DNA of 64,000 nucleotides from an uncultured Siphonobacter sp. (GTDB taxonomy: Bacteria; Bacteroidota; Bacteroidia; Cytophagales; Spirosomataceae): the NCBI GenBank assembly GCA_913775095.1, contig CAJYIW010000013.1, forward strand, positions 124,001 through 188,000, in the 5' to 3' direction. Positions 25,616 to 58,847 of the stretch are shown piece after piece. How positions within the stretch are numbered: the stretch's first letter is position 1; every line of letters starts with the position of its first letter. Made by a program: the position numbers and the translations under genes. The notes under the pieces are model-generated. The model searched no databases. It was not told the DNA's origin and saw only the letters and a list, made by a program, of their open reading frames with translations.

Positions 25616-25850
25616 CTGTAGAGACGCGGCTTTTAGTTACTATTTGGGATTATAAATCCCTGACAGGTGGCTTTCGGATTACAAATCCGAAAGAGCGGTT
25701 CATTAGTATTTAAACTGTAGAGACGCTCCCGCTATGGTTACTATTGGGATTATAAATCCCTGACAGCTGGCTTTCGGATTACAAATCCGAAAGAGCGGTT
25801 TATTAGTATTTAAACTGTAGAGACGCTCCTGCCATGGCTGGTGAAGACAC
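25616..25850. repeat. Tandem array of a 99-100-bp palindromic repeat
   Basis: Units begin with CTGTAGAGACGC at 25616, 25715 and 25815. Each full unit has GGGATTATAAATCCC and CTTTCGGATTACAAATCCGAAAG palindromes, then AGAGCGGTT and ATTAGTATTTAAA. The third unit is truncated. Single copies occur at 11693-11784 and, rearranged, at 8157-8204. Confidence 0.9.
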
Positions 25851-45367: not shown

Positions 45368-46843
45368 ATGAAATCTCTTTTAATAACCTCTCTTTTAACG
45401 ATTGCCTCGACGACGTACGCCCAGCAACAAGCGGTGCTTCCGGGCGATCATGCGGACCCTTCGGTTACCAAAATCGGTGACACGTACTGGGCCTCGGCCA
45501 CGTCTTCCAACTGGGCTCCCGAATATCCACTCTTAAAGTCAAAAGACCTGGTTCACTGGCAAACGGCGGGCTATATTTTCAACAAGCTCCCCGACTGGGC
45601 CGATTATTACTTCTGGGCTCCTGAAATCTCTTACGAAAAGGGGAAAGTCTACGCTTATTATACGGCCCACAAAAAAGGCGGGAATCTCTGCGTAGCCGTG
45701 GCCAGTGCCGATAAGCCCGAAGGTCCCTGGAAAGATCACGGTCCGCTGGTTTGTCAGTCAGACGGCTCGATTGATGCCTTTCCGATGCGGGATGAAAACG
45801 GTAAGCTGTTTCTGATCTGGAAAGAAGACGGAAACAGTATTCGTCAGCCGACGCCCATTTTTGCTCAGGAAATGAATGAAGAGCGGACGGCCTTATTAGG
45901 CGAGAAAAAAGAAATTTTCCGGAACGATCAGCCCTGGGAATCCAATCTGGTGGAAGGGGTATCGATGATTCGTCGCGGCGGCTATTTCTACGCCGTGTAC
46001 GCGGCAGCGGGTTGCTGCGGAGACGGCTGTACGTACGTAACGGGCGTGGCCAGGGCGAAAAACCTGCTGGGACCCTGGGAGAAGTTCTCCGGAAATCCCA
46101 TCCTGACGTCCGACGAAAACTGGAAGTGTCCCGGCCACGGAACGATGATTGAAAAAGACGGCAAGCATTATTTCCTGTATCACGCCTACAGCACCAAAAG
46201 TACGGTTTACTCAGGTCGGCAGGGCGTTCTGCGTGAGTTTGACTTTACGCCCGACGGCTGGCTTGCATTCAAGGCTCCGATGGCCACGCCAAATCAGGTG
46301 CCCGCATTGGTTAAGGATGATTTTTCCCGCTTTTCCAATCAGTGGAACTGGTCGGTCTTTCATCGTCCTGAGTATCAGGTGAAAGGCGGAAAACTTCAGC
46401 TGAAGGCCATTCCCGAACAGGCCGGCGTCTACCTGGCCCGAAAAACGTACACGGGTAATTACACCGCTCAGGTACAGGTAGAAGTTCCTGCCACAACCGA
46501 GCTCAAAAGCGGCCTGAGTCTGATTGGAGACGACGACAATGCCCTCGGTATTTCCGTTCAGAAAGGAGAATTGCTGGTCTGGAAACGCGAAAAAGGAAAA
46601 GATAAAGTCCTGCAAACGCTCCCGCTGGCCAATTCGAAAACGGTAACCTTACAGGCTCAGGTAAAAAACGGAAATGACGTTACATTCAAATACCTCATCA
46701 ACGGAAAAAACACCCAGGTATTCGATTCCGTCAACGGAGCGTTTCTGCCTCCCTGGGATCGGGCCGTTCGGGTTGGAGTAATCGCGAAGGGTGAAGGCAC
46801 GGGTGTGTTTGATAACTTTCAGTTAGTTACTGAGAAAGAATAG
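45368..46843 (+). CDS. Glycoside hydrolase family 43 with C-terminal beta-sandwich domain
   Basis: A 491-residue secreted enzyme. Signal peptide MKSLLITSLLTIASTTYA. The GH43 propeller spans about residues 22-300 with Asp in PGDHADPSVTKIGDTYW, Asp in GSIDAFPMRDENGKLFLIWK near 138, and Glu in LVEGVSMIRRGGYFYAVYAA near 198. A cysteine-rich loop CCGDGC follows. Residues about 320-490 form a concanavalin-like domain common in beta-xylosidases and arabinofuranosidases of family 43. The gap from the previous enzyme is 15 bp, so they are co-transcribed. Its last codons are echoed in a downstream duplication. Confidence 0.87.
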   Translation: MKSLLITSLLTIASTTYAQQQAVLPGDHADPSVTKIGDTYWASATSSNWAPEYPLLKSKDLVHWQTAGYIFNKLPDWADYYFWAPEISYEKGKVYAYYTAHKKGGNLCVAVASADKPEGPWKDHGPLVCQSDGSIDAFPMRDENGKLFLIWKEDGNSIRQPTPIFAQEMNEERTALLGEKKEIFRNDQPWESNLVEGVSMIRRGGYFYAVYAAAGCCGDGCTYVTGVARAKNLLGPWEKFSGNPILTSDENWKCPGHGTMIEKDGKHYFLYHAYSTKSTVYSGRQGVLREFDFTPDGWLAFKAPMATPNQVPALVKDDFSRFSNQWNWSVFHRPEYQVKGGKLQLKAIPEQAGVYLARKTYTGNYTAQVQVEVPATTELKSGLSLIGDDDNALGISVQKGELLVWKREKGKDKVLQTLPLANSKTVTLQAQVKNGNDVTFKYLINGKNTQVFDSVNGAFLPPWDRAVRVGVIAKGEGTGVFDNFQLVTEKE

Positions 46844-46860
46844 ATTTGCGTTTGGAGAGG

Positions 46861-46910
46861 CACGTCGCAGACGTGCTTCTCTGTCATCCGCGTTGCAAAC
46901 GCGGACGAAC
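46861..46910 (+). repeat. REP-like unit 1 (direct)
   Basis: 50-bp unit with two hairpins: CACGTC-GCA-GACGTG and TCCGCGTT-GCA-AACGCGGA, ending ACGAAC. Member of a six-copy family around the transposase at 47184. Confidence 0.88.
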
Positions 46911-46924
46911 TGCAACGACTGTTT

Positions 46925-46975
46925 TTGATATTTTTCAGTTAGTTACTAACAAAGAATAGGTTTGGATTGAGGAGG
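46925..46975 (+). repeat. Duplicated 3' end of the GH43 gene
   Basis: GATATTTTTCAGTTAGTTAC then AAAGAATAGGTTTGG repeats, with few changes, the GH43 gene end at about 46811-46857 (GATAACTTTCAGTTAGTTAC, AAAGAATAGATTTG). The duplicated piece runs straight into REP unit 2, as the original runs into unit 1. Confidence 0.8.
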
Positions 46976-47025
46976 CACGTCACAGACGTGCTTCTCTATA
47001 ATCCGCGTTGTAAACGCGGACTAAC
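46976..47025 (+). repeat. REP-like unit 2 (direct)
   Basis: CACGTC-ACA-GACGTG and TCCGCGTT-GTA-AACGCGGA hairpins, ending CTAAC. Confidence 0.88.
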
Positions 47026-47055
47026 GGCATTACATTAGTTATCATTAATTCCGCG

Positions 47056-47105
47056 GTTCGTCCGCGTTTACAACGCGGATGCCTGGGAAAGGCGTCTGCG
47101 ACGCC
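47056..47105 (-). repeat. REP-like unit 3 (inverted)
   Basis: Reverse orientation. The first hairpin is GGCGTC/GACGCC, a paired change relative to CACGTC/GACGTG; the second is TCCGCGTT/AACGCGGA. Confidence 0.85.
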
Positions 47106-47183
47106 CCATCAGTTAATTAGTAAACGGCTCTAAAGACAACGCTATACTTCTTTCTTTTACTGGCTAACACAATTGCTACAGCA

Positions 47184-47732
47184 ATGGCCGGAGACCGTTA
47201 TTTCATCAATGATCCTTTTGGAACCCATTTTCTTACCTTAACCATTGTCGACTGGGTAGACCTCTTCAGCAGACCCGTTTATAAATCCATCATTACTGAA
47301 TCGCTTACCTACTGTACCCAACATAAAGGGTTAGTTATTTATGGATGGGTATTGATGAGCAATCACTTGCATTTACTGGCTCGTACGGAGCCTCCCCATA
47401 CCCTATCGGCTTTTCTGCGTGATTTCAAAAAATTCACATCGAAGCAAATTACGGCGGCTATTGAAACACAACCCGAGAGCCGTAGAAAATGGTTACTCGA
47501 TCGCTTTTCTTTTGAGGCCAAGAGAAGTCGCCGAGCCGAGATTTATAAAGTCTGGAAAGACGACAACCATGCCATGCAGTGTCATACTGAAACGTTTTTC
47601 AGACAAAAGTTAACTTACCTTCATACTAATCCCGTACGTCAGGGTATCGTTCTGGAAGCTGATCACTATTTGTACAGCAGTGCCGTCGATTATTCCGGAA
47701 TGAAAGGATTAGTCCCTGTTATTGTTGCATAG
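47184..47732 (+). CDS. REP-associated tyrosine transposase (RAYT, Y1 transposase)
   Basis: A 182-residue HUH single-strand transposase of the TnpA-REP/Y1 family. The HUH motif is N60-H61-L62-H63 in WVLMSNHLHLLART. The probable catalytic tyrosine is Y145 in QKLTYLHTNPVRQG, and YLYSSAVDY near residue 162 is the typical end. It starts GDRYFINDPFGTHFLTLTI. Unlike IS200/IS605 elements it has no partner gene or mobile ends of its own; RAYTs are single-copy and linked to REP hairpins. Here three REP units lie just upstream and one just downstream, plus two 11 kb away. Confidence 0.92.
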   Translation: MAGDRYFINDPFGTHFLTLTIVDWVDLFSRPVYKSIITESLTYCTQHKGLVIYGWVLMSNHLHLLARTEPPHTLSAFLRDFKKFTSKQITAAIETQPESRRKWLLDRFSFEAKRSRRAEIYKVWKDDNHAMQCHTETFFRQKLTYLHTNPVRQGIVLEADHYLYSSAVDYSGMKGLVPVIVA

Positions 47733-47747
47733 ATTTACTTTGTAACT

Positions 47748-47797
47748 CACGTCACAGACGTGCTTCTCTCAAATCCGCGTTGTAAACGCGGACTAAC
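47748..47797 (+). repeat. REP-like unit 4 (direct), just after the RAYT gene
   Basis: CACGTC-ACA-GACGTG and TCCGCGTT-GTA-AACGCGGA, ending CTAAC; nearly identical to unit 2. It starts 15 bp after the transposase stop. Confidence 0.88.
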
Positions 47798-47863
47798 AGA
47801 GAAATGAAAAATCAAAAGATCAATCAAAAAATTACCATTAGTTTAGGATCGTAATTTATCGTC

Positions 47864-48056
47864 GTTCCGAGTGACGCTCTACAAGCTTAACACTCGGAAC
47901 AGTTTCTTTTTTTATTCTATAGCATTTAGGGTTCGTCCGAAGGACGCTACTTGGAACGATCGATCATTAGCAGTTTGCAACTGCCAACCCTCACAGACTG
48001 ACTTTTATTTTTCATTCCAGGTAACGCTTTACAAGCCTAACTCTTGAACTAGTTTT
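47864..48056. repeat. Mosaic repeat locus 1 (GTTCCGAGTG... family)
   Basis: Contains GTTCCGAGTG / CACTCGGAAC arms with CGCTCTACAAGCTTAA between them (47864-47900), an inverted AGCAGTTTGCAACTGCC...ACAGACTGAC module (about 47968-48003), and a decayed second arm set ending TTGAACTAG. Related loci: 51478-51596, 55494-55648 and 57989-58139. Confidence 0.75.
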
Positions 48057-48057
48057 G
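48050..48057 (+). promoter_or_regulatory. -7 promoter box TAGTTTTG before arr
   Basis: Exact TAnnTTTG box 26 bp before the arr ATG; it lies within the end of the mosaic repeat. Confidence 0.5.
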
Positions 48058-48083
48058 TAAGTCCGGATTTAACTTACAATTCC

Positions 48084-48500
48084 ATGGCATCAAAACCCGA
48101 ATCCACCACTCCTCCTTATTACCACGGCACCAAAGCCGATCTGAAACCCGGAGACCTGATTCAGCCGGGCTTTCACTCGAATTACGGCAAAAAGAATAAA
48201 GCTAAATTCATCTACCTAACCGCTACGCTGGATGCCGCCATCTGGGGAGCCGAACTGGCGGCGGGCGACGGACGCGAACGGATTTATATCGTTGAGCCCA
48301 CTGGTCCTATTGAAGACGACCCTAACCTGACCGATAAGAAATTTCCGGGTAATCCTACCAAATCATATCGTTCTCAACACCCCTTTCGGGTCATGGATGA
48401 ACTCACCGACTGGCAAAGCCACACGCCGCAGCAGGTGCAAACCATGAAAGATCACTTGGAACGATTGAAACAACTTGGTATTGAAGCTATTGAGGATTGA
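48084..48500 (+). CDS. arr: Rifampin ADP-ribosyltransferase
   Basis: A 138-residue protein matching Arr over its whole length. The NAD-pocket motifs are YYHGTKADLKPGDLIQPG (H14), KFIYLTATLDAAIWGAELA (Y44), and IYIVEPTGPIEDDPNLTDKK with the catalytic-region Asp near 78-79, then FPGNPTKSYRSQHPFRV. Arr transfers ADP-ribose from NAD+ to the C23 hydroxyl of rifamycins and inactivates them. Arr-like genes occur on both resistance integrons and environmental chromosomes; here it is surrounded by chromosomal repeats with no integrase or integron site, so an intrinsic gene is likely. Activity is untested. Confidence 0.92.
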   Translation: MASKPESTTPPYYHGTKADLKPGDLIQPGFHSNYGKKNKAKFIYLTATLDAAIWGAELAAGDGRERIYIVEPTGPIEDDPNLTDKKFPGNPTKSYRSQHPFRVMDELTDWQSHTPQQVQTMKDHLERLKQLGIEAIED

Positions 48501-48549
48501 GTCAGGTCGATAAGACTGCCTCGTTACCTTACTAAATTTAAACAATAAA

Positions 48550-48584
48550 TAAGTATGTTTATATAATCATTTATAGCATACTTA
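48550..48584 (+). promoter_or_regulatory. Inverted repeat before the GMC oxidoreductase start
   Basis: Arms TAAGTATG (48550-48557) and CATACTTA (48577-48584), 19-bp AT-rich spacer, ending 3 bp before the GTG start. It could be an operator or a hairpin masking translation start. Confidence 0.45.
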
Positions 48585-48587
48585 ACC

Positions 48588-50282
48588 GTGAACGAAGAAA
48601 CGACATTCGATGCCATCGTCATTGGCTCAGGCATCAGCGGGGGCTGGGCCGCCAAGGAACTCTGCGATAAAGGGTTTAAAACGCTGGTTTTGGAACGGGG
48701 CCGTTCGGTGGAACACCTCAAAGATTATCCAACGGCTCTTATGCATCCCTGGCAGATTCCGAACCGGGGTCGAATGAGTAAGGTCTTTCTGGAGGAAAAC
48801 CCGCTGATCAGTAAAGCCGCCGGGTTTGGTTCGGACAATGCTCATTTCTTCATTCGCGATCAGGATCATCCCTACATTCAGGAAAAACCTTTCGACTGGA
48901 TTCGGGGCTATCAGGTCGGCGGTAAATCCCTGACCTGGGGCCGGGCCTGTCAACGCTGGAGCGACTTTGAATTTACCTCTCCCCACCGTTTCGGCTACGG
49001 TATCGACTGGCCCATTCGTTATGCGGACGTGGCTCCCTGGTACACTCACGTCGAAAAATTCATTGGCGTCTGTGGGCATCCGGATGGCATTGAAGCCATG
49101 CCCGATGGCGATTTTCTCCCACCTTTTCAACTGAACTGCGTGGAAGCGGCCCTTCAGGAGTCCATCCGGAAAAATTACCCCGACCGACATCTGGTGCAGG
49201 CCCGCTGGGCTCACCTGACCCAGCCTAAAGAGATTCATCGGCAACAGGGCCGGGGCCAGTGTCAGGCTCGTAACCTGTGCATGCGGGGCTGTCCCTTCGG
49301 CGGGTATTTCAGCTCCGTCTCTTCCACCCTGCCCTGGGCTCAGAAAACGGGAAAACTGACCATCCGTCCGCATTCCGTGGTGCATTCCATTCGTTACGAC
49401 GAAAAAACGAAGAAGGCTTCGGGTGTGCGAATCATAGATGCGGAAACGCAGCAAACCCTTGATTTTTCGGCCCGCGTTATTTTTGTCAACGCCTCTGCTC
49501 TCAACAGTAACCTTATTCTACTGAATTCCCGCTCGGACCGCTTTCCTAACGGACTGGGTAACGACTCAGGTTTGCTGGGGAAGTACGTGGCTTTTCATAA
49601 CTACCGGGCCAGTCTACACGCCGAAATGCCGGGCTTCACCGATCGGTATTACTTTGGCCGCAATCCCACCGATGCCATCATTGCCAATTACCGGAATCTG
49701 CACCGACAGGATACCGATTATCTGGGCGGTTTTACGACTTTTCTGGGAGCCTATCGCCCCAAAGGAAGGCTGGAAGCCGACGACCCCGGTTTTGGAGCGG
49801 ACTTTAAAAAGGCCATGACCGAACCCGGCCCCTGGCAGATTTATATGTACATGCAGGGCGAAACCATTCCCAAAGCCAGTAATCACGTGCGGCTTAGTTC
49901 GGGCCAGACCGATCCCTGGGGCATTCCACGGCTGATTACTTCGGTTGGGTATGACGAAAACGATGAGAAAATGACGCAGGATTTTCTGCGGGAAAGCGAA
50001 GCCATGCTGCAAAAGGCTGGTTGCACGAACATTGAAACGCACGACAACCGGCAGGCTCCCGGACTGGATATTCACGAAATGGGCGGCGTACGAATGGGCC
50101 ACGACCCGAAAACGTCAATACTTAATGCCCATAATCAGATGCATGCGGTTCCCAATGTGTTCGTCACCGACGGAGCCTGCATGACCAGCACGGGCAATCA
50201 GAGTCCTTCGCTGCTGTACATGGCCCTGACGGCCCGGGCCGTTGATTACGCCGCCAGGGAGTGCCGGGCGGGTCATTTGTAA
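48588..50282 (+). CDS. GMC family FAD-dependent oxidoreductase
   Basis: A 564-residue flavoenzyme of the glucose-methanol-choline family, related to gluconate 2-dehydrogenase and glucose 3-dehydrogenase large subunits. FAD motif: AIVIGSGISGGWAAKELCD at the start (GxGxxG) with VLERG after it. GGKSLTWGRACQRWSDFEF near residue 110 is the second flavin motif. The catalytic His/Asn pair lies in DIHEMGGVRMGHDPKTSILN and TDGACMTSTGNQSPSLLYMA. The start codon is GTG 48588; no in-frame ATG precedes FAD. The usual small subunit-3 partner gene is absent here. The substrate is likely a sugar or polyol. Confidence 0.9.
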   Translation: MNEETTFDAIVIGSGISGGWAAKELCDKGFKTLVLERGRSVEHLKDYPTALMHPWQIPNRGRMSKVFLEENPLISKAAGFGSDNAHFFIRDQDHPYIQEKPFDWIRGYQVGGKSLTWGRACQRWSDFEFTSPHRFGYGIDWPIRYADVAPWYTHVEKFIGVCGHPDGIEAMPDGDFLPPFQLNCVEAALQESIRKNYPDRHLVQARWAHLTQPKEIHRQQGRGQCQARNLCMRGCPFGGYFSSVSSTLPWAQKTGKLTIRPHSVVHSIRYDEKTKKASGVRIIDAETQQTLDFSARVIFVNASALNSNLILLNSRSDRFPNGLGNDSGLLGKYVAFHNYRASLHAEMPGFTDRYYFGRNPTDAIIANYRNLHRQDTDYLGGFTTFLGAYRPKGRLEADDPGFGADFKKAMTEPGPWQIYMYMQGETIPKASNHVRLSSGQTDPWGIPRLITSVGYDENDEKMTQDFLRESEAMLQKAGCTNIETHDNRQAPGLDIHEMGGVRMGHDPKTSILNAHNQMHAVPNVFVTDGACMTSTGNQSPSLLYMALTARAVDYAARECRAGHL

Positions 50283-50423
50283 ACAGGTCCGCAGGGTTAT
50301 TCCCGGGTATCAGCCATTCATCCGTTTCTCAAGTCTATAGAAGGATTGTTACTTGGATGCGTTCCGGTCATTGCCTAACCTTGTGCCCATACGTGAACGA
50401 CTACCGTCCAAACTCTCTGCTCT

Positions 50424-51125
50424 ATGGAAGAAATTAAACCTTATGCCACCGCCGGGGAGGCCATTCGTGATCTGGATAATGGTGGCCGCTTTTATAATTG
50501 GTTTACCCGGGCCGAAGACAATGTGATTACCGAGGCCGAATTATCCAAAGTTTCCGGAGCCTTCTTCGGGAAGCAGCAAATGATTCTATTTCTGGAAATG
50601 GCTCTTTCCCGACTCAATGAAACGGACAAAGCCGAAGTTTTGTCAAAACTGGATGAATCGCTTCAGGTGCAGGTTCAGAAGTATAAGCCTCAACGCTTGG
50701 ATACCTTACAGACCGATGAAAAGGGAAAACTTACCTCCAGTACGATCATCACTGGCGTACCTATACTTCAGGAATCAAAATCCTACGTCAATGGATTCAT
50801 TATGATTCCCATCGGAAAAGCGTTTACGATCGTGCCGATTATGGACCTTTACCACATCTATGAGTTTACCGAAGAAGGTTCAGCTTATCAGATACTCGTT
50901 GCTCATAGCAAAGTCGTAAACAAGCTCCGGCTACCCGAAACTCAACTCACGGTGGGTGGAGTCTGGAAAAAATTTACCTCTTCCTTTGGAGAGAACACAA
51001 CGATGGCCCAGGAACTTTCCGGCGGCGTACCTACGTCTTACGAATCCATCAATCGTGTCTTTGAACAACTGGAATCCGATCAGAAAACAACGAATTATCT
51101 GGAGGTTACTTATTTTATGAAGTAG
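50424..51125 (+). CDS. Hypothetical protein of unknown family
   Basis: A 233-residue soluble protein that I do not recognise. It has no signal peptide or membrane segment. The N-terminal half is helical and charged (EAELSKVSGAFFGKQQMILF; LSRLNETDKAEVLSKLDESL); the C-terminal half is strand-rich (SYVNGFIMIPIGKAFTIVPI, then VVNKLRLPETQLTVGGVWKK). Upstream, TTG (50353-50355), 20 bp and TAACCTTG (50376-50383) form a near-consensus promoter with one mismatch. Codon use resembles the neighbours. It stands alone between the GMC gene and a repeat-rich region. Confidence 0.7.
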   Translation: MEEIKPYATAGEAIRDLDNGGRFYNWFTRAEDNVITEAELSKVSGAFFGKQQMILFLEMALSRLNETDKAEVLSKLDESLQVQVQKYKPQRLDTLQTDEKGKLTSSTIITGVPILQESKSYVNGFIMIPIGKAFTIVPIMDLYHIYEFTEEGSAYQILVAHSKVVNKLRLPETQLTVGGVWKKFTSSFGENTTMAQELSGGVPTSYESINRVFEQLESDQKTTNYLEVTYFMK

Positions 51126-51233
51126 CTACTGATTTAGGAGTATGACTGGTAACGCTTCATTACTCATCAGGAACGCAGAAAATACTTTTTGTATCCTTGC
51201 GAGTAGTTCCTTAGTCAGGTAAGGTCCCTTCCC

Positions 51234-51343
51234 CCTGTCATCCAGAGCGTAGCGAAGGACCTTACCAGTCAAACAGGTAACTCTCCTTTCACAAAGTGAT
51301 CTCCGGCCTAAGTAAGTTCTCTCCCTGCGGTCAAGATGACAGG
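51234..51343. repeat. Dispersed GTCAT...ATGAC repeat, copy 2
   Basis: 110 bp with ends CCTGTCATCC and GATGACAGG and internal GCGTAGCGAAGGACCTTACC and TCTCCCTGCGGTC. Compare 8036-8143. Confidence 0.8.
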
Positions 51344-51374
51344 GCAAGGGGTTGGTTTCTTTGCTAACCCTCGG

Positions 51375-51410
51375 CCTGTCATCCCAAGCGTAGCGAAGGA
51401 CCTTACCGGG
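51375..51410. repeat. Dispersed GTCAT...ATGAC repeat, truncated copy 3
   Basis: Only the left end is present: CCTGTCATCCCAAGCGTAGC then GAAGGACCTTACC. Confidence 0.75.
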
Positions 51411-51477
51411 GGTTGAAATGCAGTTTGCCACTCTACCTTACCAATCGTTCTACTGAACAACGAAAAAAGTGTCCCTT

Positions 51478-51596
51478 ACCATTCCTCGGAATGGTCGATT
51501 AATGTCAGTCTGTGAGAGTTGGCCGTTGCCAAGGGCCCATCATCCGTAATTTCAAATGATGCTCAGCGAGCTTAATCCCTGGAATAGTTTAGAGGC
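51478..51596. repeat. Mosaic repeat locus 2
   Basis: ACCATTCCTCGGAATGGT hairpin, GTCAGTCTGTGAGAGTTGGC module, and GCTCAGCGAGCTTAATCCCTGGAATAG end; degenerate relative of locus 3. Confidence 0.65.
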
Positions 51597-51617
51597 TACC
51601 GCAGCACATCCATTCCC

Positions 51618-52082
51618 TCAGGGAATATTCTTCAGTAATTGAATCTGGGCTTCCCTTTCTTTTCTGACCTGATCCCGATCGCCGGGGAACATTTTATTGA
51701 TCAGGGTAACCGCAAAATCAGTGGCCCATAAACTGTGGTATTTCGTGTGCGGACTTGCGGCTATCTGAGCCATGGTTCTTAAAAATTTCACTTTGACCGG
51801 ATCTTGCTCAGTCTTCGCAATCCGGCTAATTTCCAGACTCAGGTTTCTGGCTTCGTGATAATTGGTCTTTCCATCCAGCCATCTTTGCATGGCTACGAAT
51901 GAAGCCGTTATTTCAGGACATGGCTCAAAGCCCGTCTTATGGATGAGATGCGAACCGAATACCAGACAAAACTGCACCATTTCCCGGTGGCTTTTGGTGT
52001 CATACACAGTGATGAATGCATCCTTTAGTTCTGGAATGTCGTCTATCTTCCCGACCAGTCGCTGGTATTCGTAAATGTTCAT
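51618..52082 (-). CDS. Putative immunity protein (Imm5-like)
   Basis: A 154-residue helical soluble protein. The C-terminal pattern AQIAASPHTKYHSLWATDFA...ALINKMFPG-like (here VTLINKMFPGDRDQVRKERE) with an ERxxQ-type end resembles Imm5-like putative immunity proteins, where AAxxxxHxxxAAxYA precedes ERxWQxxxL. No cognate toxin gene was found within the window. ATG 52082 is preferred; an in-frame ATG at 52136 would add 18 residues. It lies downstream of the acnB terminator and reads in the same direction. The family call is tentative. Confidence 0.55.
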   Translation of the reverse strand: MNIYEYQRLVGKIDDIPELKDAFITVYDTKSHREMVQFCLVFGSHLIHKTGFEPCPEITASFVAMQRWLDGKTNYHEARNLSLEISRIAKTEQDPVKVKFLRTMAQIAASPHTKYHSLWATDFAVTLINKMFPGDRDQVRKEREAQIQLLKNIP

Positions 52083-52284
52083 ACTTTCATCGTTTGCAGG
52101 TTCAACGAAATGTCTGACTGATAGGTACCTACCCATGCAACTCGTCCACCAGAAAAGATTTTTGACTAGACTCCGGAGGGTCGCAGGAAATATACCGCAT
52201 GAAGTTTCACAAGTTACTTATAGCGATGGTAACATCTCTCATTCCGTACGAGGATTCAAGGACAGATTTCAATTCTCTTCAACA

Positions 52285-52320
52285 AAAAGACCCATCCGCC
52301 TAAAGCCGATGGGTCTTTTC
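52285..52320 (-). terminator. Terminator of acnB
   Basis: Stem AAAAGACCCATC / GATGGGTCTTTT with loop cgcctaaagcc, 22 bp beyond the acnB stop; A and T runs allow bidirectional use. Confidence 0.85.
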
Positions 52321-52341
52321 ATTATACTGGATCAGGAGTCC

Positions 52342-55146
52342 CTAGAACGAAAGCTGATGACTCGCAGAAGTGTTCGTCGTCATTTTCTGAACGGGAGGAG
52401 CAAACTGCGTCAGTTTGATTCCTTTCACCGCTGATTTGTATTCTTCAATCGTTGGCGTTCTACCCAGGATAGCCGAAAGAACCACCACCGGCGTCGAAGC
52501 CAACAGAGACTCGCCTTTCTTGCGATCTGAATCTTTCACCACGCGTCCCTGGAACAAACGGGTCGACGTAGCCATGACGGTATCGCCTTTCTCAGCCTTT
52601 TCCTGGTTACCCATACACAGGTTACAACCAGGACGCTCCAGATACAGGATGTTTTCGTATTCGGTACGGGCGGTTACTTTCGGAGCCGCATCGTCGAATT
52701 CGAAACCAGAATAGCGTTGCAGGACGTCCCAATCGCCTTCTTCTTTCAGTTCAGCAATGATGTTATAGGTAGGAGCGGCCACGACCAGCGGAGCCTGAAA
52801 CTCAACCTTACCATGCTGTTCTTCCAGATTCTTCAGCATTTTGGAAACGATCTTGATGTCTCCTTTGTGAACCATGCAGGAACCCACAAAACCCAGATCT
52901 ACGTGCTTGTCACCGCCGTAATACGTCAGGTCGCGGATGGTATCGTGCGTGTACCGCTTCGAGGCATCCACGTTGTTTACGTCGGGGTCAGCAATCATCG
53001 GCTCTTCAATGGCATCCAGGTCGATCACTACTTCCGCAAAATACTTAGCGTTTTCATCGGGAGTAAGCGGGGGCTTCTCGCCCGATCTGATTTCGCTGAT
53101 GCGTTTATTGGCTTTGTCAATCAGCCCCTGTAACACCTGATTCTCATTGTCCATGCCCTTCTCGATCATGATCTTGATACGATCTTTCGCGATCTCCAGT
53201 GATTCGATGAGCGTTTCGGGCTGAGAAATACAGATGGATGCTTTGGCTTTCATTTCGGCCGTCCAGTCCGTAAACGTGAAGGCCTGATCCGAAAGCAGGG
53301 TACCGATGTGTACTTCAATCACCCGTCCCTGGAAGACGTTCTCTCCGTTGAATTGCTTCAGCATCTGCAACTGAGTCGCGTGTACGACATCCCGGAAATC
53401 CAGGTGATCGTTCATTTGTCCTTTGAAGGTTACTTTCACGGACTCAGGAATAGGCATCGAAGCCTCACCCGTAGCCAGTGCCAGAGCCACTGTACCGGAA
53501 TCTGCCCCAAACGCTACGCCTTTCGACATACGCGTGTGAGAATCTCCACCGATAATAATCGCCCAGTCATCCACCGTAATGTCATTCAACACTTTGTGAA
53601 TAACGTCGGTCATGGAATGATAGACGCCTTTGGGGTCACGAGCTGTGATCAGACCAAAGTCGTTCATGAACTTCATCAGTCGGGGAATATTCTGCTGAGA
53701 TTTGCTATCCCAAACCGATGCCGTGTGGCAACCCGACTGATAACCCGCGTCCACGATAGGAGAAATCACCGTGGCCGCCATGGATTCCAGTTCCTGAGCC
53801 GTCATTAATCCCGTTGTATCCTGGGATCCGACGATGTTTACTTTCGCCCGAACGTAAGAACCGGCGTGTAATGTCGCTCCGGAAGTACCCACAGCATTGC
53901 GGTTGAAGATTTTTTCAACGGCCGTCAGACCCTGTCCTGGAATAGAGATTTCCTTCGAAGGAGCAAAAACCGCCGGAGGCGTAATGCCCAGCGTCTTGGC
54001 GGCAAACGTTTGTAATTTTTTACCGAATTCGATGGAATACGATCCACCGGCTTTCATGAATTCGATCTTCTGAGGCGTGAAGGCCGAACTTACGTCCATA
54101 ACCTCCTGACCGTCTTTATACAGTTTCTTGGTTTTGGTATTCACCGTCAGCACCGTTCCTGTATCAACGGAATAGGTTTGCTTCAGGATGGGCTGACCAT
54201 CCGCATCTACGATTAGCTTACCGTTTTCATCGAACTGCTTCACCCAGTTTTTCAGATCCAGACCGATACCTCCCGTTACCCCAACGGTCGTCAGGAAGAT
54301 CGGAGAAATACCGTTGGTTCCGGCAACCACGGGAGCAATGTTCACGAAAGGAACGTAAGGACTTGCCTGCTTACCAATCCACAAAGCCACGTTATTCACT
54401 CCTGACATCCGGGACGAACCTACGCCCATGGTACCTTTTTCGGCTACCAGCATGACGGTTTTGTCGGGATGTTGAGCTTTCAGTTCCTTCAGGGCTGCCT
54501 GCTGAGCCTTGTTGTGCTCGAACATACACTGACCGTGCAATTCGCGGTCGGAACGGGAGTGAGCATCACTACCGGGAGACAATAAATCCGTAGAAATATC
54601 ACCGATCCCGGCAATGAAGGTTACTAAGGTAATCTCTTCGGGAATGTCGGGTAACTTGGTATAGAAATCGGCCCGGGCGTAGCTCTCCAGAATATCTTTG
54701 GCGATTTCGCTGCCATTCTTGTAAGCGGCTTCCAGACGGTCGGTATCGGCATCGTACAGGAATACCTGCGTTTTGAGAACCTCAGCCGCCTGCGTCGCGA
54801 TGGCCGGATCATTGCCCAAGGCTAAATCCAGTAATACCTCAATGGAAGGACCACCCTTCATGTGAGACAACTGTTCAAAAGCAAAGGCGGGAGAAATTTC
54901 TGCGACGATGGACTCACCCAGAATGATTTCCTTTAAAAAGCTCGCCTTCACCCGGGCTGCACTCGTGGTACCGGGTAATACATTATAAATGAAGAACTGA
55001 AGGGATTCATCGCGGTGCTCATGGCCGGCGTGCTTGATCTGCTCGATCACTTCGTACATCAGCTCCGCACCATCAATCGGCAAGGGATGAAGCCCCTGAG
55101 CCTCTCTATCTATAATCTGCTTTTGATACTCGTCATATTTGCTCAT
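52342..55146 (-). CDS. acnB: Bifunctional aconitate hydratase 2 / 2-methylisocitrate dehydratase
   Basis: A 934-residue TCA-cycle enzyme that interconverts citrate and isocitrate. The N-terminal HEAT-like and swivel domains of AcnB precede the catalytic core, so it is AcnB and not AcnA. Core motifs: SGCHTASVWDSKSQQNI near residue 455, GGDSHTRMSKGVAFGADSGT near 520-540, and 4Fe-4S cysteines in GFVGSCMVHKGD near 760 and RPGCNLCMGNQEKAEKGD near 830. It is somewhat longer than E. coli AcnB (865), as normal in Bacteroidota. Preceded on minus by a -7 box at 55192-55199. Confidence 0.95.
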   Translation of the reverse strand: MSKYDEYQKQIIDREAQGLHPLPIDGAELMYEVIEQIKHAGHEHRDESLQFFIYNVLPGTTSAARVKASFLKEIILGESIVAEISPAFAFEQLSHMKGGPSIEVLLDLALGNDPAIATQAAEVLKTQVFLYDADTDRLEAAYKNGSEIAKDILESYARADFYTKLPDIPEEITLVTFIAGIGDISTDLLSPGSDAHSRSDRELHGQCMFEHNKAQQAALKELKAQHPDKTVMLVAEKGTMGVGSSRMSGVNNVALWIGKQASPYVPFVNIAPVVAGTNGISPIFLTTVGVTGGIGLDLKNWVKQFDENGKLIVDADGQPILKQTYSVDTGTVLTVNTKTKKLYKDGQEVMDVSSAFTPQKIEFMKAGGSYSIEFGKKLQTFAAKTLGITPPAVFAPSKEISIPGQGLTAVEKIFNRNAVGTSGATLHAGSYVRAKVNIVGSQDTTGLMTAQELESMAATVISPIVDAGYQSGCHTASVWDSKSQQNIPRLMKFMNDFGLITARDPKGVYHSMTDVIHKVLNDITVDDWAIIIGGDSHTRMSKGVAFGADSGTVALALATGEASMPIPESVKVTFKGQMNDHLDFRDVVHATQLQMLKQFNGENVFQGRVIEVHIGTLLSDQAFTFTDWTAEMKAKASICISQPETLIESLEIAKDRIKIMIEKGMDNENQVLQGLIDKANKRISEIRSGEKPPLTPDENAKYFAEVVIDLDAIEEPMIADPDVNNVDASKRYTHDTIRDLTYYGGDKHVDLGFVGSCMVHKGDIKIVSKMLKNLEEQHGKVEFQAPLVVAAPTYNIIAELKEEGDWDVLQRYSGFEFDDAAPKVTARTEYENILYLERPGCNLCMGNQEKAEKGDTVMATSTRLFQGRVVKDSDRKKGESLLASTPVVVLSAILGRTPTIEEYKSAVKGIKLTQFAPPVQKMTTNTSASHQLSF

Positions 55147-55191
55147 AATAAACTTATTAGTTCCAGAAGATTAGATAAACCAGGAAAACCA

Positions 55192-55199
55192 CAAATCTA
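55192..55199 (-). promoter_or_regulatory. -7 promoter box TAGATTTG for acnB
   Basis: On minus, an exact TAnnTTTG box about 45 bp before the acnB ATG. Confidence 0.5.
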
Positions 55200-55682
55200 C
55201 TAAAAAACTAGTAAATAGGCCCTCTATCCCTTGTTTTTCATCGGTATATAATGCCCTTTCAGGCCCTGTCTATAACGAGGTTTTCCTATCTAATGACAAC
55301 TACTTTTCCTCCTTAGTTCCAGGAAGCTTCCGGCATTTTACACTGGAAACCGTTTGGGTTGCCCTTAACGACTATTTTTTCGTATGCGGCTTAATAGAGG
55401 ACTGAGGAATGCCCGGCAATGAAGCCAGGGAAGAAAGGGAATACTTTTGCCGTTGTTAGTGCTTTCTGCCATTGTTGGTGTCTAATTGAACTATTTCCAG
55501 TGACGCCCGGCATGGAATACCTTTCAGGCTTAACACCCGGAATGGCTGATAGAGGTCAGTCTGTGACTGACGGCAGTTAGAAACTGTCTTGATCCATAGT
55601 TCCAAGTGTCGCTCTGTGAGCTTAATACCTGGAACAGCTTAAGAGGTCCGAATCATTGGTTTTACGCGTATGTATAAAAAGT
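55200..55682. other. Gene-free region upstream of acnB
   Basis: No gene is seen. Its right part is mosaic repeat locus 3 (55494-55648); the rest shows nothing clear. Confidence 0.6.
55494..55648. repeat. Mosaic repeat locus 3
   Basis: TTCCAGTGACGCCCGGCATGG, ACACCCGGAATGG, then an 86-bp stretch from GAGGTCAGTCTGTGACTGAC to ACCTGGAACAG. That stretch is nearly identical to one at locus 4 (starting about 58018). Confidence 0.8.
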
Positions 55683-55732
55683 CAGGCGACCTGAATCAAT
55701 CATGACTTAGCATGATTGATTCAGGTCGCCTG
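55683..55732 (-). terminator. Perfect 22-bp-stem terminator of the double GH43 gene
   Basis: Arms CAGGCGACCTGAATCAATCA+TG (55683-55704) and complement (55711-55732), loop acttag; on minus it is followed by ACTTTTTATA. It lies 35 bp after the GH43 stop. Confidence 0.85.
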
Positions 55733-55767
55733 GGTTATGAATACTTTCTACAATCGTTTTTTAGAAC

Positions 55768-57717
55768 TCATTTAGACGTACTCGACACACCTTCACTGGT
55801 CATTACTACCCGTTTTAGAGTTCCGTTTTTGTTATACTCTAGTTTATCAATACATATCGAGCGGCTAAAACTACTACCGTCGGTTTGGATACCTCCGTTG
55901 TGGTAAATGAAGTACCACTGCCCTTTATGCTGGACAATCGCCTGGTGATTGGTATTACTGTTTCCGGCAATTTCATTTAAAATGCCTTTGTATTCGTAAG
56001 GCCCTTCTACGGAATTAGCCACTGCATACGCAATTTTCTCCGGAAAACCCGTCGCGTAACTCAGGTAGTATTTGCCTTTGTGCGTATGAATCCAGGGGGC
56101 TTCCGTAAAATCGAAACCAGGGAACTGAACCCGTTTGATTTCCCCTTCTATTTCGACCATGTTCTTCTTTAATCTGGCATAATAGCATTCGCGATTGCCC
56201 CAGAAAAGCCAGGCCTGATCGTTCGCATCGATATAGACCGTGGGGTCAATACAGGCCCAGGAGTGGGAAGAGGCAAAACAATCCTTGTTGGTAAGCAGAG
56301 GTTTTCCCAACGCATCTTTGTAGGGACCTTCCGGTCGATCCGCTACTGCCACACCAATACCCGACCAGTTGGTGCTGATGTACCAATAGTATTTCCCCTT
56401 TCTTTCAATGACCTGACCCGCGTACGCATCTCCACTCTTCGCCCAGGAGAAATCCATTATTTGTAAAGGCACGGGATACTGGGTCCAGGTCTTTAAATCC
56501 GTGGTAGAATACACCAGCCAGTCTTTCATTTTATACCCACTTTGTCCCCCCTCGAAATCGTGACCCGCGAATAACCACAGCGTATCTCCTTTCACCAGTG
56601 CCGCCGGATCGGCCGTGTATGCATGCGTGATGATGGGGTTTCCTCTGGAAGTAAATGAATAGCGATCAGAAGCCTCCACGGGTTGTAACAAGTCGTTGGA
56701 AACGCCCCCCCATTTCACCTGTAGACGGCGGGCTTCTTCCCGGGTAATGCCGATGACACTGCCATGCCGGGGATTAAAGTTTTTGGTGAAAGACTCGGGT
56801 TTATCCGTAAAATGATACAGATCGGTGCTCCGCTGAAACTCATACCGCAGGTTGGTGTATAGGTCATACATCAAAATATACTCGTCCGAGTCATTGAGTT
56901 TGAAGACACTGGACCCTTCCACCACAATGTTTTTATCCGAATACGCATCCAGGTACTTGAAATCCTCTACCCAGGGACCGCTCAACGACTTCGCAGTGGC
57001 CTGCTGAATGCCATTTTTAATTTCTTTCCCCTTCTCATCTTTGGCATTCCCTTTGAAGAACAGATGGTACGTGCCGTCTTTATACACAATATCGCCGTCA
57101 ATGGCTCCGTATTTGGCCCGGAACATCAACTTGGGTTCCGCTTCAAAACCGGTAAAATCCGGATTGGCGTAGGCGGAATAAAAATCAAGCCTGGCATCGT
57201 CTTTGAAACGCACCGTGAAGTAGACCAGGTACTTTTTGACCTGTGGATCATAAATGGTTTGCGGAGCCCATACCCATTGAACATTCCCAAACGTCTGCGG
57301 GTAGGTTTTGGCCAGGTCGATACTCCGGTGGGTCCAATCCACCAGATTAGTGGAACGCAACAGAACAATGCCGGGATTGCTGCCCCATCCATTTTTACCG
57401 ACGAACATATCGGTTGCCGTCAGGTAAAAGGTATTTCCATCCTGTCCGCGTAGTAAATGCGGGTCCCGAATCCCGCCCGTTTGTGAGATATCACTGGAGG
57501 CAAGAATAGGCTGATTGTTGTTTAAAGCAGACCAGTGAACGGCATCCTTGCTGATGCCCAGTCGTAACTGCTCCTGCTGGAGGGGGTCGCCTGATCCTTC
57601 AAAGTAAGCAAATAAATAGCCTTCAAAAGGCGGTGAAGCCTGCTTAGTTTGGGTAAAAGCGGATACACTGCTTAACATGGCCCAAAGGAAGGTCAGTGTT
57701 TTTTGGCGTAGATTCAT
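55768..57717 (-). CDS. Secreted protein with two tandem GH43 domains
   Basis: A 649-residue exported protein with a signal peptide (RQKTLTFLWAMLSSVSAFT). Two GH43-like propellers follow. Domain 1 (about 30-330): Asp in GGIRDPHLLRGQDG, Asp in GAIDGDIVYKDGTYHLFFKG, Glu in VVEGSSVFKLNDSDEY. Domain 2 (about 355-640): Asp in YTADPAALVKGDTLWLFAG, Asp in WACIDPTVYIDANDQAWLFW, Glu in FTEAPWIHTHKGKYYLSYAT. Each domain keeps all three expected acidic residues, so both may be active. The likely targets are arabinose- or xylose-containing glycans. ATG 57717 starts the signal peptide. It is 9 kb from the main glycan locus. Confidence 0.85.
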   Translation of the reverse strand: MNLRQKTLTFLWAMLSSVSAFTQTKQASPPFEGYLFAYFEGSGDPLQQEQLRLGISKDAVHWSALNNNQPILASSDISQTGGIRDPHLLRGQDGNTFYLTATDMFVGKNGWGSNPGIVLLRSTNLVDWTHRSIDLAKTYPQTFGNVQWVWAPQTIYDPQVKKYLVYFTVRFKDDARLDFYSAYANPDFTGFEAEPKLMFRAKYGAIDGDIVYKDGTYHLFFKGNAKDEKGKEIKNGIQQATAKSLSGPWVEDFKYLDAYSDKNIVVEGSSVFKLNDSDEYILMYDLYTNLRYEFQRSTDLYHFTDKPESFTKNFNPRHGSVIGITREEARRLQVKWGGVSNDLLQPVEASDRYSFTSRGNPIITHAYTADPAALVKGDTLWLFAGHDFEGGQSGYKMKDWLVYSTTDLKTWTQYPVPLQIMDFSWAKSGDAYAGQVIERKGKYYWYISTNWSGIGVAVADRPEGPYKDALGKPLLTNKDCFASSHSWACIDPTVYIDANDQAWLFWGNRECYYARLKKNMVEIEGEIKRVQFPGFDFTEAPWIHTHKGKYYLSYATGFPEKIAYAVANSVEGPYEYKGILNEIAGNSNTNHQAIVQHKGQWYFIYHNGGIQTDGSSFSRSICIDKLEYNKNGTLKRVVMTSEGVSSTSK

Positions 57718-57988
57718 TTTAGAAAATAGACTTAGTAGCACAAGATAGACGAGGTTTGTTAGGGTTCTTTTCAGGCGACTCTAAAAGGCCCGATGCATTT
57801 GCCAACAGGGAATGAGTTAGCTTTTCCACCGCAGCATTTACTACTCTTACGTTGTCTGGAGCTGTTTATACTCGTTCTGGAAGAATTAATCTGGTAAGTA
57901 TCTGCATGCTTTTGAAAAACTAGGGCATGCAACCCTGTCGTCCGAGCCTGTGTTACGGATGCCGGAGAAAAGGGGCTTTGACCCTACT

Positions 57989-58139
57989 ATTCCGGGTGTC
58001 AGCCGGAATGGATAATAGAGGTCATTCTGTAGCTGACGGCAGTTGCAAACTGCCTGTGATCCGTGGTTCCAAGTGTCGCTCTGCGAGCTTAACACTTGAA
58101 ACAGTCTGTGTTGATTTACAAGCTTAACACCTTGAACAT
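57989..58139. repeat. Mosaic repeat locus 4
   Basis: ATTCCGGGTGTCAGCCGGAATGG, then the module GAGGTCATTCTGTAGCTGAC through GAGCTTAACACTTGAAACAG shared with locus 3, then an extra TTTACAAGCTTAACACCTTGAA. The 432-bp gap 57718-58149 otherwise holds no gene. Confidence 0.8.
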
Positions 58140-58149
58140 TTGTGGGTCA

Positions 58150-58617
58150 TTACAACCACCTAGCCACACCTCCGTGGTGTGAGCAAGTACCTCTTCTACT
58201 TCGGCTGAAACTATAGGTCCCATCTCTGCAGAGAGCCGTGGCTCCTGCTGGTACTGAGCTATAAAACGTTGGAGACTGGACTCTTTCTCCCGAAGAATTG
58301 ATATAATATTTCTTACCTGAACTCGTACTTTTTCTTTCTCGTACAGTAGCTGATTCTTGTTTATTAACTAACTGCTGGCTTGTAAGATACTTTGAGCTTA
58401 CAAACCCTATATTACCTTGATAGTGAACTTTGATCCAACTGCAATCACAATTTTCAGCCATTGCTACGCTAGTACCTTCGGGAATTGTAGTAAGTACTGG
58501 ATAAAAACTATCAGGTCCACTTCTAAGATTTAAGTTAGCCGAAGCGTATTTATAACTTTGTCCAAAAGTTGTTACTGCGTAAAAGAAAGCCAAGAAAATA
58601 AATACATATTTTTTCAT
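58150..58617 (-). CDS. Secreted SH3b / DUF3761 protein
   Basis: A 155-residue exported protein. Signal peptide MKKYVFIFLAFFYAVTTFG. An SH3b domain follows at about 23-85 (KYASANLNLRSGPDSFYPVL, then GNIGFVSSKYL). The C-terminus is the DUF3761 motif CRDGTYSFSRSRRGTCSHHG ending GVARWL. SH3b domains usually bind peptidoglycan or surface ligands; DUF3761 function is unknown. Its DNA looks more AT-rich and uses more A/T-ending codons than the flanking genes, suggesting transfer, though composition was not computed. It sits between repeat clusters. Confidence 0.85.
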   Translation of the reverse strand: MKKYVFIFLAFFYAVTTFGQSYKYASANLNLRSGPDSFYPVLTTIPEGTSVAMAENCDCSWIKVHYQGNIGFVSSKYLTSQQLVNKQESATVRERKSTSSGKKYYINSSGERVQSPTFYSSVPAGATALCRDGTYSFSRSRRGTCSHHGGVARWL

Positions 58618-58656
58618 AGTTGATATGAATGAGAGTGTAGTATACTATTGGCCTCC

Positions 58657-58706
58657 GTTCGTCCGCGACTGCGTCGCGGATGCTGGAGAATGGCGTCTGT
58701 GACGCC
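58657..58706 (-). repeat. REP-like unit 5 (inverted)
   Basis: Reverse orientation; hairpins TCCGCGAC-TGC-GTCGCGGA and GGCGTC-TGT-GACGCC. Both stems carry paired changes relative to units 2 and 4. Confidence 0.85.
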
Positions 58707-58717
58707 CGTATCAGTTG

Positions 58718-58767
58718 CACGTCACAGACGTGCTTCTACCAAATCCGCGTTGAAAACGCGGACTAAC
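58718..58767 (+). repeat. REP-like unit 6 (direct)
   Basis: CACGTC-ACA-GACGTG and TCCGCGTT-GAA-AACGCGGA, ending CTAAC. With unit 5 it forms an inverted pair separated by 11 bp. Confidence 0.87.
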
Positions 58768-58792
58768 AATGGGTTAAAAATTTCACTGTATT

Positions 58793-58835
58793 ATATAGAA
58801 GGTCCACTGGTTAGAAACCAGTGGACCTTCTATAT
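58793..58835 (-). terminator. Terminator of dnaE
   Basis: Perfect 20-bp stem ATATAGAAGGTCCACTGGTT / complement with loop aga, 13 bp beyond the dnaE stop. Confidence 0.8.
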
Positions 58836-58847
58836 ACAATACTCTAC

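Follow-up and report, generated by a model that had tools for sequence, protein, structure and literature searches.

The stretch analyzed here, referred to as the window, comprises 64,000 nt of contig CAJYIW010000013.1 from an uncultured Siphonobacter sp. of the Bacteroidota. It carries a gene for a repetitive extragenic palindrome (REP)-associated tyrosine transposase (RAYT) of the HUH Y1 family, located on the forward strand at positions 47184 to 47732 and encoding 182 aa, and six repeat units of 50 bp. Units 1 (46861-46910, + strand), 2 (46976-47025, + strand) and 3 (47056-47105, - strand) lie upstream of the gene, with units 2 and 3 arranged tail to tail and unit 3 inverted on the 5' side of the RAYT, while unit 4 (47748-47797, + strand) follows it. 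Units 5 (58657-58706, - strand) and 6 (58718-58767, + strand) form a doublet with 11 bp between them (58656-58768, no strand assigned) that lacks a RAYT gene.

The identity of the gene, which the initial annotation had proposed, was confirmed by domain models, relatives and predicted fold. The protein scored 90.7 bits against NCBIfam NF047646 (cut-off 80) and 29.3 bits against Pfam Y1_Tnp (cut-off 23), and it remained under the cut-off of the transpos_IS200 model (26.6 bits, cut-off 55). No match was found in the PDB by sequence alone; by fold, the AlphaFold model (pLDDT 94.3, pTM 0.89) matched best to 4er8, a REP-bound RAYT (E 7.3e-8, TM 0.63/0.69), followed by the ISDra2 and IS608 transposases. 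The HUH motif is NHLH (residues 60-63), and Tyr145, placed within YLHTNP, is the predicted catalytic residue by homology. The reading frame and the active-site residues are intact, and the HUH histidines are conserved in 141/141 Bacteroidota relatives and the tyrosine in 139/141. The gene is single-copy, its nearest relative in the genome being 57% identical. According to the main text of PMC6006769, RAYT group 5, which corresponds to TnpA-Y1 subclass 2.6, is found mostly in Bacteroidetes, has "atypical secondary structures" at its flanks, of which further copies occur in the genome, and is characterized by the motifs NH[LIV]H, W-Q and YIH[QN]NP, a long HUH-Y distance and SS after the core. 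The motifs, length (182 aa, median 179) and HUH-Y distance (84, median 82) of the window RAYT agree for the most part with this subclass, to which it would belong. The serines S165 and S166 after the core are invariant in 36 sequences, and the protein has W-K and YLHTNP where the subclass has W-Q and YIH[QN]NP; W then Q is found in 100/141 relatives.

The six units are present where the initial annotation had placed them and give a gap-free alignment of 51 columns. Folded singly as single-stranded DNA (ssDNA), each gives, in the fixed order also described there, two hairpins with loops of 3 nt, the first with a stem of 6 bp and the second with one of 8 bp, joined by a linker of 11 nt; the z-scores are -3.1 to -6.1 relative to shuffles. 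When the window was searched with a 45-nt pattern taken from the direct unit, up to 3 mismatches being allowed, four matches were obtained, against none in 100 shuffles. The left end of the RAYT, unit 3, has the inner stem GGCGTC/GACGCC, the outer stem TCCGCGTT/AACGCGGA and the tail CGAAC; the right end, unit 4, has CACGTC/GACGTG, the same outer stem and the tail CTAAC. In the doublet, unit 5 is of the left-end type (inner GGCGTC, outer TCCGCGAC/GTCGCGGA) and unit 6 of the right-end type (inner CACGTC, outer TCCGCGTT), whereas units 1 and 2 are extra copies of the right-end type. All 84 pair cells of the six units are paired, and two-sided changes were found in 4 of the 14 pairs (shuffled mean 1.5; 4/500 shuffles reach 4), with a count of further pair types that was within chance in the covariation test (191/500 shuffles). 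Units called "direct" (CACGTC) and "inverted" (GGCGTC) seem to represent the two end types, right and left respectively, of a single element; the change of arms among the six therefore goes back to few separate events. The earlier claim that the arms change together is sustained in part, the covariation within this genome being modest.

The six units are only the local count of a dispersed family. A covariance model built from them was run against the 5.65-Mb genome, where 56 sites matched at E<=1 and 55 also at E<=2.3e-4; since 150 of 693 candidates were scored, the family has at least 55 units. They are distributed in 28 clusters, 26 of which lie outside mechanically called open reading frames (ORFs) of at least 90 codons. 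Thirty-six units form 18 head-to-head doublets, each about 103 bp long and with four hairpins, the units being separated by 1-2 bp in 17 cases and by 11 bp in the window. In every one of the 18, the two outer stems are unlike, a GAC/GTC-like stem being joined to a GTT/AAC-like one (one arm read by eye); in the doublet at C2:61849 the outer right arm is TCCGCGTT. Fifty of the 55 copies measure exactly 51 nt. In these, CNAAC comes directly after the outer hairpin (C in 49, A in 50, A in 45, C in 49), which viewed on the opposite strand gives the outer hairpin a GTTNG foot, and in none of these 50 was GTAG or GTGG found directly 5' of either hairpin. Allowing G-T pairs, the outer stem is fully paired in 41/50 copies and the inner stem in 35/50. 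In the 18 doublets, 96.0% of 504 cells are paired, two-sided changes occur in 6 of 28 pairs, and the covariation score (0.140) exceeds that of shuffled (0.107; 0/500) and slid versions (0.027-0.081). One helix, on the other hand, shows no two-sided change, and the number of further pair types is within chance (55/500). Covariation within the window genome is real but modest, and the strong evidence comes from the comparison between families.

Based on the order of the units, the region from 47056 to 47797 (742 bp, + strand) would be a whole RAYT element made up of a left end, the RAYT and a right end, as suggested by its mirrored units and by the flanking hairpins of relatives; its cleavage points are putative. 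The RAYT lies between an inverted and a direct unit, an order also found in the doublets, and the inner stems differ by end, GGCGTC on the left and CACGTC on the right. The doublet at 58656-58768 carries both of these inner stems without the gene. A similar arrangement was observed in Pedobacter: the RAYT element of P. ginsenosidimutans has a CATT-type inner stem on the left and a GCGAT-type on the right, and 12/12 doublets from three genomes, chosen among listed sites 83-179 bp apart, pair one CATT-type with one GCGAT-type inner stem (one weak inner stem was read by eye). Given the same unit order, the shared inner stems and the Pedobacter doublets, we read the doublet as the two ends of a RAYT element minus its gene. 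The single 50-bp unit described in the initial annotation looks like half of the real element.

To compare this organization with that of other Bacteroidota, we analyzed the flanks (-200/+150) of 74 RAYT loci from the host's family, which are the best-scoring, mostly full-length matches (34 from the match list itself and 40 by place). These flanks contain 204 perfect hairpins, against a mean of 8.4 and a maximum of 15 in 40 dinucleotide shuffles. Hairpins occur on both sides in 53/74 loci (shuffled mean 0.1), and in 41 of these 53 an identical 6-nt arm is found left and right, compared with 3.6% between loci. Among named Bacteroidota, the best 80 of 538 loci gave 64 with hairpins on both sides and 52/64 with an identical arm; arm sharing between loci reached 18.4% here because many of the named loci are related. 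Seventy-nine of the 80 had room for a displacement test: the two-sided arrangement was found in 63 of them and an identical arm in 51, while displacement by 1.3-1.8 kb left 0-2 and 0-1, respectively, of 66-74. Once RAYTs at least 95% identical were removed, the pooled set comprised 141 loci, not fully independent since many of the RAYTs are related, with hairpins on both sides in 106 and an identical 6-nt arm in 84 of the 106 (permuted mean 9.3, maximum 21, 2000 permutations). Two or more hairpins per side are common at Bacteroidota RAYT loci and not universal: they occur on at least one side in 91/141 and on both in 48/141, or in 98 and 59 with one mismatch allowed (displaced controls, both sides, 0-1 of 66-74).

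The recurrence of this association bears on the possibility that the doublets are ordinary miniature inverted-repeat transposable elements (MITEs) of a DDE transposase with terminal inverted repeats, among which the RAYT lies by chance. A length of about 103 bp and inverted ends are indeed MITE-like, and the doublet at C5:206812 has in its flanks a direct repeat of 17 bp, near-perfect and exact over 12 bp, which is unusual for HUH elements. Exact repeats in the flanks of the remaining 27 clusters were at most 6-8 bp long or absent, and a chance neighborhood does not account for hairpins that recur around HUH RAYT genes at 106/141 loci; we consider this origin extremely improbable.

At the same loci, the sequence of the stems follows that of the enzyme. 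The proportion of locus pairs with an identical arm rises from 1.8% at 40-50% RAYT identity to 17% at 50-60%, 45% at 60-70%, 76% at 70-80%, 83% at 80-90% and 93% above 90%. The units are a dispersed repeat family with conserved structure, and over the Bacteroidota the repeat sequence follows that of the RAYT, both in support of the earlier interpretation. The ends also carry strand information, with 156 hairpins of RCA type against 35 of the reverse TGY type when loops closed by ATT or GTT are read in the right-end orientation. Hairpins with 10-bp stems have NGCT on the outer side in 44/76 cases and on the inner side in 6/76. On the 423 outer sides at the 141 loci GT[AG]G was never found, and on the 423 inner sides it was found three times.

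The stems present at RAYT loci are also dispersed through the respective genomes, as shown by counts that include the RAYT-adjoining sites and take each palindromic site once. The sequence TCCTCGTTNNNAACGAGGA has 11-34 sites in each of the 7/7 genomes with that stem at the RAYT locus, and no site in 3/3 genomes with other stems or for reversed controls. Similarly, five genomes with the stem CCCCGATTNNNAATCGGGG have 8, 9, 1, 4 and 5 sites of it, the lone site of G013 being the RAYT flank itself, and two genomes with another stem have none. In the window genome, the stem of the second RAYT, located on contig C3, is TTTCGGATTNNNAATCCGAAA, with 39 sites; it has 28 in G083, whose RAYT has the same stem, 12 in G060, and 4, 2 and 0 in the other three genomes. 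The stem of the C5 RAYT, GGTTGGTGNNNNCACCAACC, has 37 sites in the window genome, 59 in G083 and none in four others. At least three RAYT-and-repeat pairs thus exist side by side in the window genome. Of its further RAYT loci, that on C12 has a stop and no hairpins and that on C19 has flanking repeats.

These pairs, together with the placement of the units, are relevant to whether the repeats are host RNA elements, i.e., terminators or stabilizers of mRNA 3' ends that are kept for expression, with the RAYT as a mere neighbor. None of the 28 clusters lies between divergent genes, 13 being convergent and 15 codirectional in terms of mechanical ORFs (P ~0.001 given 8/37 divergent gaps as in the window), so most of them would be transcribed. 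Such a function leaves unexplained the mirrored hairpins that flank RAYT genes, the match of stems and RAYTs over the Bacteroidota, and the presence in one genome of several unlike families, each matching one RAYT; moreover, no Rfam match was found within window positions 46500-59000. As the main explanation a host RNA role is very unlikely, and it may exist as a side effect.

Taken together, the system is probably a REPtron of the Bacteroidota RAYT group (group 5 of Bertels, subclass 2.6 of Quentin) with its non-autonomous family. We propose that the single-copy HUH/Y1 RAYT would recognize an ssDNA end made up of hairpins, here the outer 8-bp stem, the 11-nt linker and the inner 6-bp stem with their 3-nt loops. 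The stem sequence would be read by the RAYT, and each RAYT lineage would hence have its own stems. A short foot outside the outer hairpin would replace GTAG, namely TTNG in the window family, ATNG in the Pedobacter family and NGCT in many families with 10-bp stems. Cutting would take place near this foot through Tyr145, moving or copying whatever sits between the two ends, left and right. Found more often, the mobile form without a RAYT would have lost the gene; it is a four-hairpin doublet of left and right ends, spans about 103 bp and is located downstream of genes.

The window RAYT may not act on the whole family. The right-end arm CACGTC is present in 4/50 full-length copies, all of them in the window, and most others have AGCGTC or AGCGTT; given this confinement, the window RAYT may not have spread the other copies. 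It is conceivable, if rather unlikely, that the AGCGTC/AGCGTT doublets were spread by another RAYT, now lost, and that the window RAYT moves the CACGTC/GGCGTC subfamily only. In favor of it, the genome has four other RAYT loci and none of them has the outer stem TCCGCG in its flanks. The two subfamilies nevertheless have outer stems and CNAAC tails in common, and the window doublet at 58656-58768 has an outer stem of the GAC kind that characterizes the dispersed copies, both of which speak against such a division.

Besides the confinement of CACGTC, several other observations weigh against the REPtron interpretation. Among the 141 loci, 35 have no hairpins on one or both sides at the cut-offs used, 93 have fewer than two on at least one side (82 if one mismatch is allowed), and 22 of the 106 two-sided loci have no identical arm. 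Pairs of RAYTs with 20-30% identity depart from the trend, sharing arms in 12.8% of cases (n=196), more than those with 30-50%. G104 and G028 have homotypic doublets, and in G015 and G042 there are forms with three hairpins. Movement, binding and cutting are, in addition, what we infer from these data. The distribution of the window's unit family in relatives is also discordant in part. In 150 genomes of the family, searched with stricter filters and 39 candidates scored per genome so that unit counts outside the window genome are at least those given, units were found in 13. A RAYT at E<=1e-10 is present in 11 of these 13 and in 64 of the 137 without units (Fisher p=0.017), which weakly upholds the earlier expectation that the copies track the RAYT in relatives. 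On the other side, a RAYT is adjacent to the units, or no more than ~510 bp away from them, in only 4/13 genomes (G000, G024, G118 and G128, the RAYT of the last being a fragment), and G125 (12 units) and G148 (2 units) have no RAYT at E<=1e-10. G083 has 20 units, and the RAYT there has other stems and a stop; this genome probably carries the units without a cognate RAYT.

Three loci were compared with relatives in the search for empty sites. The element at C2:466843 is absent from 4/4 relatives in which both flanks aligned, out of five in the genus; in the fifth, G046, the two flanks are not kept together. At C5:206812, G060 has 80 bp where the window genome has 281, with no element match listed there, and the 320-bp gap of G083 did not align. 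No base-exact empty site was obtained at C2:466843, where the gaps have diverged, and none was readable at C17:56158, where synteny is not kept in the relatives; these two results count as well against a mobile system. A related alternative is that the repeats are inactive relics of a family that no longer moves, the RAYT having been domesticated for another job. Low copy number and decayed copies, as seen in the proportions of fully paired stems given above, would agree with it, as would the description of RAYTs, in the available text of PMC8049555, as single-copy, vertically inherited, domesticated genes. The intact frame and active site of the window RAYT and the absence of the C2:466843 element from all four testable relatives point in the other direction, and we regard the relic explanation as a doubtful one.

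For the Bacteroidota in general, we advance only tentatively the idea that group 5 RAYTs form true two-ended elements and not REPtrons of solitary palindromes, typically with two-hairpin ends, a lineage-specific stem key and a foot other than GTAG (NGCT, TTNG or ATNG), and that RAYT-less doublets constitute phylum-wide multi-hairpin ssDNA miniature elements, with several unlike families per genome. The probability of the two-ended organization is lowered because two hairpins on both sides occur in just 48/141 loci.

Among previously known systems, IS200/IS605 elements such as IS608 and ISDra2 share the HUH Y1 fold, and they have one hairpin per end, not mirrored. Unlike the multi-copy class 1 TnpA, the window gene is single-copy and scores under the cut-off of the IS200 model. 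The hairpin ends of IS200/IS605 are processed as single strands, as stated in the main text of PMC6006769. The REPtrons and REPINs of E. coli, Pseudomonas and Stenotrophomonas (groups 2 and 3) resemble the window system in having a RAYT flanked by inverted palindromes, gene-less dispersed inverted doublets (here n=18) and RAYT-repeat coevolution, the latter reported for Stenotrophomonas in the available text of PMC2817692. The window system differs from them in its ends of two hairpins each and in lacking a GTAG/GTGG foot (0/423 outer sides at 141 loci). Of the two traits that define a REPIN, inverted repeats in pairs and their movement as one unit, the 18 doublets show the first and would share the second. 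Canonical REPs of subclasses 2.2, 2.4, 2.5, 2.7 and 2.8 have GT[AG]G directly 5' of the hairpin, a position where it is lacking here. In the main text of Di Nocera et al. 2013 (PMC3733652), TIRtrons consist of a RAYT-like gene, the TIRYT, between inverted repeats, some of them "double palindromic", with repeat dimers elsewhere, and the window element has the same layout of a gene between inverted repeats with dimers elsewhere. The likeness is one of layout and not of subclass: of 26 TIRYTs, 20 belong to subclass 2.1, the rest to 2.2 and 2.5, and none to 2.6 according to the main text of PMC6006769, and a GGGGWSAS motif is common to some TIRYTs. CGTC-tagged REPs, reported in Bacteroidetes among others in the text of PMC3733652, have CGTC as an unpaired tag and flank no RAYT, whereas the inner stems of the window hold CGTC within the stem, a likeness that appears coincidental.

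Another of the closest known systems is subclass 2.6, which, as far as its main text description goes, shares with the window system the Bacteroidetes host, a similar protein length, NH[LIV]H, a long HUH-Y distance, the SS, the absence of GT[AG]G, and flanking structures with dispersed genomic copies. The suggestion in the initial annotation that the unit may be undescribed was too strong, since this subclass with its atypical structures and copies was already reported (PMC6006769). Based on the texts available, Bacteroidetes RAYTs with atypical structures, double-palindromic RAYT-like repeats with dimers, and RAYT-REP coevolution are already known (PMC6006769, PMC3733652, PMC2817692). The consulted main-text passages of PMC6006769 contain for subclass 2.6 no two-hairpin mirrored ends, left and right end types, RAYT-less doublets or replacement foot. 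Likewise, two-hairpin mirrored ends in group 5, NGCT, TTNG or ATNG feet and doublets as end pairs were not found in the main texts of the open-licence papers searched.

The available RAYT literature rests on GTAG-footed repeats, mostly from Gammaproteobacteria, and the Bacteroidota set differs from it in both architecture and foot. Stem and enzyme sequence change together over the 141 loci, which makes it testable how a RAYT distinguishes its own repeat from the others in the cell and what substitutes for GTAG as a guide for cleavage. A simple origin is also offered for REPIN-like doublets, namely the two ends of a RAYT element minus the gene. If true, the two-ended-element reading would give a large natural table of protein-to-hairpin specificity.

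Some additional features of these repeats were observed. Avoidance of palindromes, considered in view of the unlike units joined in 18/18 window-family and 12/12 Pedobacter doublets, was rejected as a general rule in view of the homotypic doublets in G104 and G028; unlike left and right ends suffice. The compact form of G015 and G042 consists of two outer hairpins and a single shared inner hairpin. At C19:37490-37871, three doublets are arranged in tandem with a period of 139 bp, which suggests local duplication. The window contains four copies of TTTCGGATTNNNAATCCGAAA (8158, 11748, 25672 and 25772) and near copies of GGTTGGTGNNNNCACCAACC at 25836 and 25873; G083 has its 59 GGTTGGTGNNNNCACCAACC sites, yet just one RAYT at E<=1e-10 among the matches listed, with other stems. 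A weak covariance-model match at 57936-57985 (19.2 bits, E 0.41) may be a decayed left-end unit. A further repeat, AGCTTAACACTCGGAAC, is present with 0-3 mismatches at window positions 47884, 55527, 55619, 58086 and 58121, one copy lying shortly behind unit 4, and it also flanks the RAYT on contig C19. Immediately downstream of the RAYT element, at 48084-48500, lies a gene for a rifampin ADP-ribosyltransferase (Arr).

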